From assembly GCA_014729235.1 (NCBI GenBank), contig WJKH01000029.1:1-46209 (forward strand): a DNA stretch of 46,209 bases, read 5' to 3'. A program made the position numbers and the translations under genes. The notes beneath the pieces were generated by a model. It was not told the DNA's origin and searched no databases. It saw nothing but the letters and a program-made list of their open reading frames with translations. This document shows positions 1,540 through 26,583 of this stretch, piece by piece. The DNA comes from Candidatus Dojkabacteria bacterium. GTDB lineage: Bacteria; Patescibacteriota; Dojkabacteria; SC72; WJKH01. Each line of letters begins with the position of its first letter. Position 1 is the first letter of the stretch.

Positions 1540-4275
1540 ATGACCGAGAAAAAAGACAATGATGCTAAAAAAATAAAGAAACTCATTATCAAGTCTGAAG
1601 ATGAGTTAATTGATGTTATTAGAAAGCTGAAAAACAGCGATTCAAAGCACATTATATTAACCTTCGCTGAAAAATCCGACCTATTGATTAGTCCAATCAG
1701 CTTCAAAGTCCTTCAAAAGACTGCTGATGAAGAAGGGAAGTTAATAATTGCACAGATAGTACAGCACAAAGCAGGATTGACAAATGCACAATTTGCAAAA
1801 GTAACTGCTACTTCTTCTCCAAACGAAGTCCCTGCTGATCTCTGGAAAATCGCTAAGCAGGATTTAGAATTTCGCCAAGAGGACAAAGCAGAGCGACTTA
1901 AGCATAAAGATAAATTACCTGAGCCCAAACAAGATCCTGAACCGACAGAAACTCCTGAAAACATGGATCTGAAAGAATTCGACCTCGCAAAAGAAGCTGA
2001 CTGTGGGGAGAAACCTCTTCCTATTAAAGACGAGACCGATATTCCTGAAATTGAAGACTCTGACGAAGGTTCCGAAGAACCTATAACTGAAGATAAAGAA
2101 GAGCCAAAAGAAGGTCCGCAGGAACATGTATCAGATTTTCAGAAACGAATATCCGAGACCCTCCTAAAAGCTCAAAAAGACTACACAGATCCACAAAACA
2201 AAATTGTAAGGGAAGATGATTTCATTATTGCACTCGATCAAGATATCAAGGATGTCCCGGGAGTAAACCTTGATGAATTTGAAAACGAATCTCTTGAGTC
2301 ATTTGAAAGAAGTGATGAAGATTCTGATTCCAATTCCAATGAACAGAAGTTGAAATCTAGTGACAAAAAGGCCTCCTCTGAAAAACCCACAACTGTGGAG
2401 TCTAAAGATCCAGCTGAAATCGAGTCCAAATTGCCATCATCATCTCAAAACAATACCCCTACCCCTTCAGAGAAAAAGACACCTAAAAAGCTCTCAAGAC
2501 CGGATAAAGATAACGACTTAAAACTCGAATTTTATGAAGATGATATTGACCAGTTTGACCTGCAAAATGATAAAGCCGATACCAAACAGCCCCAGAAATC
2601 ACACATAAACTCTTCGGGACCTGATACCAGCAGCCACAAAAACTCGGCAAAAGATAGAATTAAGGACTTTATTAAGTCCGCCTCTGATAAAATTCAACAA
2701 ACGGCGGCATCAGTTAAAGCCGGCTCTCCCGATGAAAAAGCTGACTCCGATTTGCAACCCAAACCCAACCCACAACTTCAAAAAAAAAGTAGTGATCTCG
2801 TAGGAAAAGACCTCAGAAATACACCTGCCCCCAAACCCCAGAAATCTATGCAGATATCACATAAACCAACAAACTACACAAACTCAGCGCTCTCACCTTC
2901 CCAATTCAATCAAATGCAAAATCATGCTCAAGGCCGTAGAAATACAGCGAGTCCGATATCATCAATTATCTCATCCCTTAAAACCTTAGTATCCAGCATC
3001 CTTCCAAAAGGAAAGAATCTCAATATTAGAAAGCTGATCCTCCCAACTGTATTTATTTTCCTCTTGATTTTTTATGGGATTTATAAAATAACTTCTCAGG
3101 CAACCGTTAATGTATCAATTGAAAGCAGACCTGTAACATTTGAAAGAACTTTTACCGGCAAAGAGGGAGCAGAATTTAGCTTATCCGAAGACCGCATCGC
3201 CGTTAAAAAGGAAGAAGTTGTCAGAGAACGGTCAGAAACAGGTGATGCAAGCGGGACAGGTTACGAAGGCGAACCATCAAGCGGCACTATTAAAGTACAG
3301 TGCCTGATATCAGTAGATGAGTTTCCTGATAACGTAATTACTATCCCAAAAGGAACTACTGCTACAGAAATATCTACAGGAAAAAAATACGAGACTCTCT
3401 CAGCGATCGATGATAAACAGTGCCCATCACTTACATCAATTGATATCAAAGCGAAAGGCGTGGGCCCTGACTATAACCTGGAATCAGGTTCCGGCGTATT
3501 CGCTTTCGATGGATTTGACCGCAACAAGGTATCCGCAGTCAATGTGTCAGCAATAGACGGCGGCACACAAGAAGAAGTACCCGAAATTACCCAAGAAGAT
3601 GTTGATGACTTAATTGAAGACCTAGAGGAAATTGTTGAAGAAGAAGCCCAGACTGAACTTGAAGAGATTAATGCTGTTGACGGCTGGATCGTAATTCAGG
3701 ATACAATTGATCACGAAACGGAAGGCGACCCAAAACCCGATCCCTCAGTTGGAACTCAATCCGAAACATTTGACATTGGACTGAGCGTAAAAAGCAGTGC
3801 CCTATACTATCGCAAAAGTGATATTGAGAATTCCCTGCCTGAGATCATTCTCGAAGAAGCCCGCAAACAAAACGTTTTTGGCAACACTACTGAACTGCAA
3901 GTAGTCGGCGAAATTGACACCAGATACAGCGTTGATGTGGAAGATAATGATGATGCGGAAGAAGTTAAAGTCAAAATCGAGGTCTCCGCTATGGTCAAGC
4001 CCGAGATTACTGAGGAGGAGATTCTCGCAAATCTGGAAGGCAAAAGCTGGAACGAAGGCATGGATTATCTTGGAGATTTGCCATTTCTCGCCGGTCCGGT
4101 CGAAGCAGATTTCAAACCCGCCTGGTTCCCTGCATTCTTGAAGCACTTTCCCGACGGCAAAAACCAAATCTTTGTCCATATTAACGAGGTTAGTTTCTCT
4201 TCCGATGAATCAGAGGACATTCCTGAAGAATCAGAATCTGAGGAATCTCAAGACGAGGATCAATCTGAAGACTAG
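1540..4275 (+). CDS. Large acidic single-pass membrane protein with baseplate-J-like C-terminal half
   Basis: 911 aa; ~480-aa low-complexity acidic/Ser/Lys N-terminal region, one TM (ILPTVFIFLLIFYGIYKI), then GTIKVQC...VITIPKGTTATEISTGKKYETLSAI...IKAKGVGPDYNL resembling baseplate J/gp47-type proteins annotated in CPR genomes. Confidence 0.6.
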   Translation: MTEKKDNDAKKIKKLIIKSEDELIDVIRKLKNSDSKHIILTFAEKSDLLISPISFKVLQKTADEEGKLIIAQIVQHKAGLTNAQFAKVTATSSPNEVPADLWKIAKQDLEFRQEDKAERLKHKDKLPEPKQDPEPTETPENMDLKEFDLAKEADCGEKPLPIKDETDIPEIEDSDEGSEEPITEDKEEPKEGPQEHVSDFQKRISETLLKAQKDYTDPQNKIVREDDFIIALDQDIKDVPGVNLDEFENESLESFERSDEDSDSNSNEQKLKSSDKKASSEKPTTVESKDPAEIESKLPSSSQNNTPTPSEKKTPKKLSRPDKDNDLKLEFYEDDIDQFDLQNDKADTKQPQKSHINSSGPDTSSHKNSAKDRIKDFIKSASDKIQQTAASVKAGSPDEKADSDLQPKPNPQLQKKSSDLVGKDLRNTPAPKPQKSMQISHKPTNYTNSALSPSQFNQMQNHAQGRRNTASPISSIISSLKTLVSSILPKGKNLNIRKLILPTVFIFLLIFYGIYKITSQATVNVSIESRPVTFERTFTGKEGAEFSLSEDRIAVKKEEVVRERSETGDASGTGYEGEPSSGTIKVQCLISVDEFPDNVITIPKGTTATEISTGKKYETLSAIDDKQCPSLTSIDIKAKGVGPDYNLESGSGVFAFDGFDRNKVSAVNVSAIDGGTQEEVPEITQEDVDDLIEDLEEIVEEEAQTELEEINAVDGWIVIQDTIDHETEGDPKPDPSVGTQSETFDIGLSVKSSALYYRKSDIENSLPEIILEEARKQNVFGNTTELQVVGEIDTRYSVDVEDNDDAEEVKVKIEVSAMVKPEITEEEILANLEGKSWNEGMDYLGDLPFLAGPVEADFKPAWFPAFLKHFPDGKNQIFVHINEVSFSSDESEDIPEESESEESQDEDQSED

Positions 4276-4531: not shown

Positions 4532-4617
4532 TAATATGAGTTAAGAAATTCAAAATCAATAGAGCAATAAGTCCTAGTCGCATTTTCATGCAGGATTATT
4601 TCGCATACCATGTATTA
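4532..4617 (+). repeat. Interspersed repeat copy A (hybrid/internally deleted)
   Basis: TAATATGAGTTAAGAAATTCAAAATCAATAGAGCAATAA joined to GTCCTAGTCGCATTTTCATGCAGGATTATTTCG; first half matches copies B/D, second half matches copies C/D. Confidence 0.75.
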
Positions 4618-4908: not shown

Positions 4909-4982
4909 GGGCGAATAGCTCAGCTGGCTAGAGCACTTCGTTGACATCGAAGAGGTCGTAGGTTCAAGTCCTGCTTCGCCCA
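4909..4982 (+). tRNA. tRNA-Val (anticodon GAC), CCA not encoded
   Basis: Acceptor GGGCGAA/TTCGCCC, D arm GCTCAGCTGGCTAGAGC, anticodon stem-loop CTTCG-TTGACAT-CGAAG, T loop GTAGGTTCAAGTCCTGC, discriminator A. Confidence 0.95.
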
Positions 4983-5083
4983 TCCCGCTAACCTATAGTA
5001 AACATATTCGAATCCTTACCTTACAAAACAAAGGCGAACTTATCAACTTCGTAAAAAATTAGGAAATTTCTCCCAAAAGATGC

Positions 5084-5089
5084 TATAAT
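5084..5089 (+). promoter_or_regulatory. Candidate extended -10 promoter (TGCTATAAT)
   Basis: TGCTATAAT at 5081-5089; ATG of the small upstream ORF is 10 nt beyond the -10 box. No clear -35. Confidence 0.45.
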
Positions 5090-5099
5090 CACTCCAACA

Positions 5100-5156
5100 A
5101 TGCAAAAACAAAGCCTAAAAACACACAACAGCTGTTGCTGTAAACCAACAATTTAA
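5100..5156 (+). CDS. Candidate Cys-rich leader peptide MQKQSLKTHNSCCCKPTI
   Basis: 19-codon ORF ATG...TAA with TGT TGC TGT at 5133-5141, located upstream of cysM on the same strand and overlapping a hairpin. Confidence 0.45.
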   Translation: MQKQSLKTHNSCCCKPTI

Positions 5157-5184
5157 TATTGGTTTACTTTGCTTTGTATTTTTC
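5140..5184 (+). terminator. Terminator/attenuator-like hairpin with imperfect U-tract
   Basis: GTAAACCAA (5140-5148) / TTGGTTTAC (5159-5167), 9 bp perfect, 10-nt loop, followed by TTTGCTTTGTATTTTTC. Confidence 0.5.
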
Positions 5185-5321
5185 ATTTACCCCGATAAAC
5201 CTCCAATTCACTATTGAACCCTCAGATTTCCATACAAACCCCAAATTCCGAACCCAGCCCAGCCACACATAAATCCCCATATGCAAAAATAATTAGTTGA
5301 GTAAACCAAACTTAACTAAAT

Positions 5322-5460
5322 TAATGTGAATTAAAAAAAAGACTGCAGTTGAAAAGCGCGGGTAGCCAATCGGTTTAAGCTTTGACGGGTGAGAGGTCGA
5401 ATGACCCAAAGCTATGGCAAAAAGTCCTTGTCGCCTTTTCATGCAGGATTATTTCGTAAC
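5322..5460 (+). repeat. Interspersed repeat copy C containing a structured-RNA-like core (5343-5446)
   Basis: Shares GACTGCA(G/A)TTGAAAAGCGCG ... GCAAAAAGTCCT(T/A)GTCGCCTTTTCATGCAG(G/A)ATTATTTCGT with copy D at 26361-26583 (opposite strand). Confidence 0.8.
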
Positions 5461-5481
5461 TTAAATAGTATTATTAATTCA

Positions 5482-6378
5482 ATGGACAAAAACAGTATAT
5501 TGGGAACAATCGGAAACACACCAATAATCGAGCTGCGCAGATATTCATTCAACAAAAACGTAAAAATATTCGCAAAACTCGAAGGACGAAATCCCGGGGG
5601 GTCAATTAAAGACAGAGTCGCCCACCAACTCGTACTCAGTGCAGAGACAAAAGGACTCATAAGCAAAAACCGAGATATAAAGTTAATTGAGGCAACAAGC
5701 GGAAATACAGGAATCGGTTTGGCTATGGTGTCTGCAATACGAGGCTATAAGTTTCTTGCGGTAATGCCGAAAAATGCGAGCACCGAGCGAAAAAAGTTAA
5801 TCAAACAATTCGGAGCCGACCTCCTGCTAACAGATGGAAGTAAAGGCAGCAATTTCGCCCTCAAGACTGCACAAGAAATTGTAAAAAATACCCCGGAGAA
5901 ATACATCATGCTAAATCAATACAACAACCCGGCAAATCCGGAAGCGCATTTTTTGACTACAGGCAAAGAAATCCAGCAACAAATGCCTGAAATCACACAC
6001 TTTGTCGCCGGGATGGGAACCGGGGGCACGCTGATGGGAGTAGGAAAACGATTAAAGCAATTTAAGAAATCTATAAAAGTTATCGGAGTAGAACCTGCCA
6101 AAGGCTCAAAACTTCAAGGTCTTAGAAATATGGAAGAATTTATCCCCGGTGTCTATAAACCCGCCTTAATAGATAAGAAATTGATTATTGCCGACGACAG
6201 TCCTGCTCTTGAGCTTGTTGGTGATTTAGCCCGTATTTCCGGGATTTCTGTAGGTTTTTCTTCAGGCGCTGCTCTTTGGGGTGCCCGGGAGCTGTCAAAA
6301 TCTCTCAAAAATGGTATAATTGTAACGGTTTTTCCTGATTCAGGTGATCGATATCTAAGTCTGACGCCAGTGGTTTGA
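5482..6378 (+). CDS. cysM: Cysteine synthase (CysM/CysK-type, PLP-dependent)
   Basis: MDKNSILGTIGNTPIIELRRY, KLEGRNPGGSIKDRVA, IEATSGNTGIGLA, GMGTGGTLMGVG, FPDSGDRYLS. The ORF-track start at 5389 lies inside the repeat element; ATG at 5482 is preferred. Confidence 0.93.
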   Translation: MDKNSILGTIGNTPIIELRRYSFNKNVKIFAKLEGRNPGGSIKDRVAHQLVLSAETKGLISKNRDIKLIEATSGNTGIGLAMVSAIRGYKFLAVMPKNASTERKKLIKQFGADLLLTDGSKGSNFALKTAQEIVKNTPEKYIMLNQYNNPANPEAHFLTTGKEIQQQMPEITHFVAGMGTGGTLMGVGKRLKQFKKSIKVIGVEPAKGSKLQGLRNMEEFIPGVYKPALIDKKLIIADDSPALELVGDLARISGISVGFSSGAALWGARELSKSLKNGIIVTVFPDSGDRYLSLTPVV

Positions 6379-26360: not shown

Positions 26361-26583
26361 TAATTTGAGTAACGAAATAATTCTGCATGAAAAGGCGACT
26401 AGGACTTTTTGCAATAGTATTAGGTCATTCGTCCCTGCCCCCTGGCATATCTTAAACCTACCGGCTGCGCGCGCTTTTCAATTGCAGTCTTCTTTCTTAA
26501 CATAAATTAAAATTTTTAATATAAAGTATTCAAAATTCAAAAGTTATTGCTCTATGGATTTTTGAATTTCATAACTCAAATTA
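26361..26583 (-). repeat. Interspersed repeat copy D, full-length with terminal inverted repeats and structured core (26383-26487)
   Basis: Ends TAATTTGAGTAA (26361-26372) and TAACTCAAATTA (26572-26583) are inverted repeats with 1 mismatch; contains the B-type hairpin and the C-type core. Confidence 0.8.

Follow-up and report, generated by a model that had tools for sequence, protein, structure and literature searches.

A predicted cysteine-responsive attenuator leader ahead of cysteine synthase genes in Patescibacteria

The region upstream of a cysteine synthase gene in a Candidatus Dojkabacteria contig is very probably the leader of a transcription attenuator that responds to cysteine through a translating ribosome, judging from comparison with a second copy in the same genome and with distant relatives. 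A preliminary description of the contig (the whole stretch of 46,209 nt, referred to here as the window) had proposed a cysteine-sensing attenuator leader at this place, and its recurrence at the paralog and in distant relatives supports the proposal. Most leader-bearing relatives appear to carry a trp-type four-segment attenuator with an intrinsic terminator; in the window copy the sensor and antiterminator seem to be preserved, and an ordinary terminator is absent. The coordinates of all features are collected in Table 1.

Table 1. Features of the predicted attenuator and its surroundings in the window
Feature	Position	Strand	Basis or remark
Extended -10 promoter box TGCTATAAT	5081..5089	+	10 nt 5' of leader ATG
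Leader ORF MQKQSLKTHNSCCCKPTI	5100..5156	+	Same-type ORF at paralog and distant relatives
Outer helix, 5' arm (0) AAAAACAAAGC, early leader codons	5104..5114	+	MFE fold
Regulatory Cys codons TGT TGC TGT	5133..5141	+	Cys run recurs in relatives
Segment 1 GTAAACCAA	5140..5148	+	Folds; paralog has GTAGACCAA at same place
Segment 2 TTGGTTTACTT, partner of 1 or 3	5159..5169	+	TTGGTTTACTTTGCT identical in paralog
Outer helix, 3' arm (0') GCTTTGTATTTTT	5171..5183	+	Folds
C-rich, G-poor stretch, possible Rho-loading site	5184..5290	+	36% C, 6.5% G; parts segments 2 and 3
3:4 hairpin TTAGTTGAGT-AAACCAA-ACTTAACTAA	5293..5319	+	Fold; exclusive with 2:3; arms 5293-5302/5310-5319
Segment 3 GAGTAAACCAA	5299..5309	+	Pairs with segment 2 over 11 nt, including one G-U; p 0.014
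Dispersed 150-bp repeat, imperfect terminal inverted repeats	5321..5469	+	Where terminator U-tract would be
Cysteine synthase (cysK/cysM type), presumed regulated	5482..6378	+	TIGR01136, E 6e-101, just below cut-off

RESULTS

A Cys-codon leader ORF ahead of two cysteine synthase genes

The leader ORF encodes 18 residues followed by a stop codon at 5154–5156. The promoter-like box, the ATG 10 nt past it and the 19-codon ORF stand where the preliminary description had placed them, and the three Cys codons within the ORF agree with it letter for letter. The same-strand gene beginning at 5482 had been called a cysteine synthase, an assignment borne out by its best NCBIfam match, TIGR01136 (cysKM), with 337.7 bits against a cut-off of 344.15. 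As in trp-type attenuators, a run of codons for the end product thus lies in a same-strand leader ORF upstream of a pathway gene. The window ORF has no Shine-Dalgarno sequence and is predicted to start nearly leaderless; a Shine-Dalgarno sequence was found in none of the 21 leaders examined, and a -10 box lies 3–13 nt 5' of the leader start in 11 of these 21 (mean 3.2 and maximum 8 in 500 shuffles). The spacing of the box and the missing Shine-Dalgarno sequence suggest that translation of these leaders would start near the 5' end of the transcript.

The same genome encodes a second cysteine synthase (locus L010), 56% identical to the window copy and preceded by a leader of the same type, MNSINSRNNSSCCCRPNN plus stop. 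The pattern TATAAT-N28-58-TGYTGYTGY occurs twice in the 1.16-Mb genome, each time directly ahead of a cysteine synthase gene. Across the phylum it is unspecific, turning up in 225 of the 380 genomes scanned, so that it was used for this genome only, where the evidence lies in its position rather than its presence.

Several tRNA genes lie near these leaders. At all three loci of the clade a tRNA gene stands closely upstream of the leader: tRNA-Val in the window (4909–4982), tRNA-Pro at L010 (2698–2771) and tRNA-Leu at L049 (2524–2607). At L049 the leader ATG follows tRNA-Leu by only ~13 nt, a distance that suggests a joint transcript. At L010 a tRNA-Cys (GCA) gene (2400–2473, minus strand) sits between the Cys leader and the cysteine synthase gene, and owing to this placement it may itself fall under the attenuator.

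Recurrence of Cys leaders in the phylum

We looked for ORFs of 6–50 codons with three or more consecutive Cys codons at most 400 nt upstream of cysteine synthase genes. Such an ORF precedes 15 of 41 same-phylum loci, collected in searches of the class, the phylum and the G391 class and not fully independent of each other; a looser criterion (three Cys within four codons) raises the count to 17. The antisense strand has no ORF with the Cys run at any of the 41 loci, and dinucleotide shuffles yield it at ~0.2 loci on average. At cysteine synthases of other phyla, taken from an alignment-based genome search and often higher in G+C than the phylum loci, it was found once in 80 (Fisher p 1.4e-7 versus the phylum), the shuffles guarding against this difference in composition. 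Roughly every second cysteine synthase of the phylum lacks a Cys leader. On the protein tree of cysteine synthases the leader status switches at least 10 times, and the association is therefore not a single inherited accident. The Cys run and the hairpin, which the preliminary description expected to be shared by relatives, thus do recur, with the limit that roughly half of these genes in the phylum have no leader.

Distant relatives of the same class have the leaders MNKYLNLKQNCCCTNSL, MKYILKNLKIQFCCCKDPPCCS, MQKIFLNNNFFCCCEPII and MISKHEFQEFTNFCLGFPNSCPGRTCSCC, each ending at a stop codon, and across clades no peptide sequence is conserved beyond the Cys run. Some members of the phylum read TGA as a sense codon, a trait that suggests Gracilibacteria-type Patescibacteria. 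No relative was found by a single-protein scan of genome contigs, and the searches of the genus, the family and the G092 and G179 classes gave no additional cysteine synthase.

Three loci differ in arrangement. At L025 (~1214–1500) two Cys leaders in tandem, each with its own terminator, precede one cysteine synthase. At L026 (~1430–1500) the search for an intrinsic terminator found none; here another ORF containing Cys codons, together with a hairpin beside the start codon of the cysteine synthase, suggests translational control instead. The sole control locus with a Cys run, L105 (upstream of 2001, MFTFAAACVCCCPELPGG...), belongs to an Acidobacteria MAG and is possibly a further case of a Cys leader.

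Mutually exclusive structures in the leader RNA

Within the leader, GTAAACCAA at 5140–5148 pairs with TTGGTTTAC at 5159–5167 over 9 bp and is followed by the T-rich TTTGCTTTGTATTTTT, in agreement with the hairpin and tract of the preliminary description. RNA folding, named there as a check, gave a structure for 5096–5190 that is more stable than all 200 shuffles (z -2.9). Taken alone the 9-bp arm is modest (p 0.024), and it is its conservation that raises it above chance: the paralog forms the corresponding hairpin GTAGACCAA/TTGGTTTAC. Since its 5' arm directly adjoins the Cys codons and its loop contains the stop codon, placing the stop between segments 1 and 2, we assign 5140–5167, by analogy, as the 1:2 (protector or pause) hairpin of a trp-type attenuator.

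Segment 2 has a second partner in segment 3, and this 2:3 antiterminator is exclusive with 1:2. It is kept at the paralog, whose segment 3, GAGTAAGCCAA, has one change that preserves the pair as G-U (p 0.016); the window and the paralog thus have the segment 3 motif TGAGTAARCCAA in common, along with 1:2 and 2:3. In fold predictions, masking of segment 1 leads the RNA into 2:3, and a ribosome placed at the stop codon leads it into the 3:4 hairpin with arms 5293–5302 and 5310–5319.

The pairing of 5104–5114 with 5171–5183, which the preliminary description had offered as an alternative structure, is borne out and recurs elsewhere, but it is read here as an outer helix around 1:2 and not as the antiterminator. 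The paralog builds the outer helix from different letters (AATAAATAGC/GCTGTTTATT), G051, G071 and others have it as well, and it is enriched in 17 leaders outside the set on which it was defined (p 5e-4). The outer helix would close the untranslated leader and favour termination.

Attenuator anatomy in relatives and predicted mechanism

The 3:4 intrinsic terminator of trp-type attenuators is found in related loci. The first leader of G051 has the full set of segments, GTACTAACTCTT (1), AAGGGTTAG (2), CTAACCCTT (3) and GGTTAGTTTTTTT (4). For the 18 of 21 leaders with a terminator candidate, the 2:3 pairing has a mean score of 18.8 compared with 12.3 after shuffling. A strong intrinsic terminator lies at most 130 nt from the gene at 13 of 20 leader loci, whereas the same scan found one at 4 of 21 phylum loci that have no leader, at 5 of the 80 control loci and in 1% of the shuffled sequences. 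It overlooked longer-loop terminators that are seen by eye in G741 and G693; in G071 no terminator was found. In four leaders, which represent three classes or more, CTCTCGG stands in the terminator arm and segment 2 matches it, and homologous attenuators appear to be shared between classes.

Promoter use, translation of the ORF and the response to cysteine are predicted from these features as follows. Transcription would begin just before 5100, and a ribosome would initiate at the 5'-proximal AUG. When Cys-tRNA is scarce, the ribosome would stall at 5133–5141 and cover segment 1, leaving 5159–5169 to pair with 5299–5309, so that 3:4 is blocked and transcription reaches cysM. When Cys-tRNA is plentiful, the ribosome would reach the stop codon, inside the loop of 1:2, masking segment 1 and part of segment 2, whereupon 3:4 would form and transcription would stop. 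In an untranslated leader, 0:0' and 1:2 together would close the structure and again leave 3:4 free.

The altered window copy

In the window copy the U-tract after the 3:4 hairpin is absent, and the search for an intrinsic terminator gave merely a weak candidate, inside the repeat. With the intrinsic terminator looked for in this way and not found, we class the window copy as no more than a relative of the trp-type attenuator that has been remodelled or has decayed. Segments 2 and 3 are ~130 nt apart, compared with 20–72 nt in relatives, and the core of the dispersed repeat starts one base after the 3:4 hairpin. The preliminary description had pointed to the ~300 nt that separate its hairpin from cysM; this gap exists, but most of it is the repeat, which had been missed.

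A search of the genome with 5040–5490 gave 51 matches, nearly all to ~5312–5470, and nearly all intact copies inspected have a core of 149–151 bp with imperfect terminal inverted repeats, TTAATTTGAATTAAGAAA. The ~50 matches in the 1.16-Mb genome include loci L002–L024; further copies lie in the window at 26363–26500 (minus strand) and, in part, at 4564–4603, and the element sometimes stands in tandem, two or three times. A search of 41 further genomes from the order found no copy, and the repeat resembles a small mobile element of the non-autonomous kind. A tRNA-like nature of the repeat was considered and dropped, there being no Rfam tRNA match in it and no clear consensus fold across its copies. 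On the minus strand (5276–5319), the hairpin 5319–5293 together with TTATTTTTG behind it resembles a terminator for repeat-derived or cysM-antisense transcripts.

Given the missing U-tract and the repeat in its place, the window copy is today either served by a different terminator, with Rho one possibility, or partly decayed. In the most serious competing account, which we consider plausible although clearly the less probable one, the leader is a relic: insertion of the repeat would have removed the terminator and freed cysM from cysteine control, with the gene expressed from the leader promoter, from the transcript of the tRNA-Val gene upstream, or from a promoter within the repeat or behind it. 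The absent U-tract, the repeat core from 5321, the weak terminator candidate and the existence of a second, more complete copy elsewhere in the genome all agree with such a loss; yet the window has kept intact the leader ORF, the outer helix and segments 1, 2 and 3, where decay would be expected of an unused element.

The C-rich stretch between segments 2 and 3 brings in a different output, in which Rho would load at 5184–5290 once the leader is completed and released and would end transcription before cysM, while a stalled ribosome would alter the RNA pairing or the access of Rho. The composition given in Table 1 extends over 107 nt, which places the stretch among those with the highest C-minus-G per 100 nt on both strands of the window; Rho is encoded in the genome (TIGR00767 match over cut-off) and has been proposed for the Cys leaders of Mycobacterium (PMC1262725). 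Still, Rho-dependent output seems unlikely to us, as a C-rich stretch of comparable length is missing at the paralog, 5184–5290 would stay uncovered by a stalled ribosome, and composition by itself makes no rut site. A wider conjecture is somewhat less probable again: the near-leaderless Cys leaders of Patescibacteria may be a distinct build, in which the ORF start, paired with the RNA right behind segment 2, keeps the leader closed except when a ribosome initiates immediately, the module may have been repeatedly gained or moved with cysteine synthases between classes, and the repeat and the C-rich insert of the window may have turned intrinsic into Rho-dependent termination.

The preliminary description had taken the hairpin 5140–5167 with its T-rich tail as the terminator itself. 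TTTGCTTTGTATTTTT does follow the hairpin directly, and the paralog keeps a T-rich tail, TTTGCTGTTTATTTTC, after its 1:2 hairpin. Translation, however, would block this hairpin at any cysteine level, whether the ribosome stands on the Cys codons or on the loop's stop codon, and 5140–5167 is therefore no sensor-controlled terminator. Only three of its nine pairs are G-C, the tail is interrupted by GC, the terminator search did not score it, segment 2 has a conserved second partner, and the terminators of relatives stand separately downstream, nearer the gene. We consequently rejected this assignment on geometry and hold it to be quite improbable.

That the ORF encodes a functional Cys-rich micropeptide acting in trans, as a metal or thiol sensor, is very improbable: Cys-rich peptides can bind metals and the ORF is conserved in kind, but the peptides share no sequence across clades outside the Cys run, which is tied to RNA pairing and to a site ahead of cysteine synthase. 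A chance ORF and hairpin, frequent as both are in A+T-rich DNA and common as the promoter-plus-Cys pattern is in the phylum, can be dismissed almost entirely, with 15–17 leaders observed ahead of cysteine synthase where 0 to 2 are expected and both copies of one genome in that position.

DISCUSSION

Within the literature searched, the cysteine-responsive attenuator predicted here belongs to a family not previously described for this phylum, and no paper there links leader peptides or transcription attenuation with the phylum in any relevant manner. Little is known about metabolic regulation in these tiny, mostly uncultured, host-dependent bacteria. The recurring switch implies that leader-bearing lineages would sense the supply of cysteine, perhaps host-derived, and respond to it by ribosome stalling alone, and ~20 loci are now at hand for studying near-leaderless attenuators.

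T-boxes and other riboswitches of cysteine and methionine genes would act on a gene of this sort, likewise by ending transcription early, but in an Rfam search of the region only tRNA passes. In the trp, his and leu attenuators of enterobacteria the regulatory codons lie at the edge of segment 1, the stop codon stands between segments 1 and 2, and 2:3 and 3:4 are mutually exclusive. The present leaders share the placement of the codons and of the stop as well as the exclusive pairings, and differ in having cysteine codons, no Shine-Dalgarno sequence and an additional outer helix; the window copy differs further in its missing U-tract. Polycysteine leader ORFs of Mycobacterium are reportedly the subject of work by Canestrari et al. 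in 2020 (doi 10.1111/mmi.14498, cited in PMC13236596).

Mycobacteria and their relatives have Cys-run leaders ahead of cysteine genes without conserved terminators (PMC1262725; PMC4633059); conserved terminator hairpins were not found in mycobacteria, and Rho was suggested (PMC1262725). Those leaders, like the present ones, are short ORFs with a Cys run near the stop codon, and they start at or very near the 5' end of the transcript, as is predicted here from the -10 box 10 nt before the ATG. In contrast to them, most loci described here have 1:2, 2:3 and an intrinsic 3:4 terminator, belong to a different phylum and precede a lone cysteine synthase gene. A further predicted ribosome-mediated Cys-codon attenuator is uORFC-8-2 of Rhodobacterales, a leader whose Cys codons stand in tandem and whose terminator has a U-run at the end (PMC8632094). 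According to the parts of that source consulted, uORFC-8-2 has two Cys codons, at positions 14–15, and lies ahead of cysS (cysteinyl-tRNA synthetase) in Alphaproteobacteria, whereas the downstream gene here is a cysteine synthase; a near-leaderless start or an outer helix is not reported in those parts (PMC8632094). The leaders described here would thus extend Cys-codon attenuation beyond Actinobacteria and Rhodobacterales.
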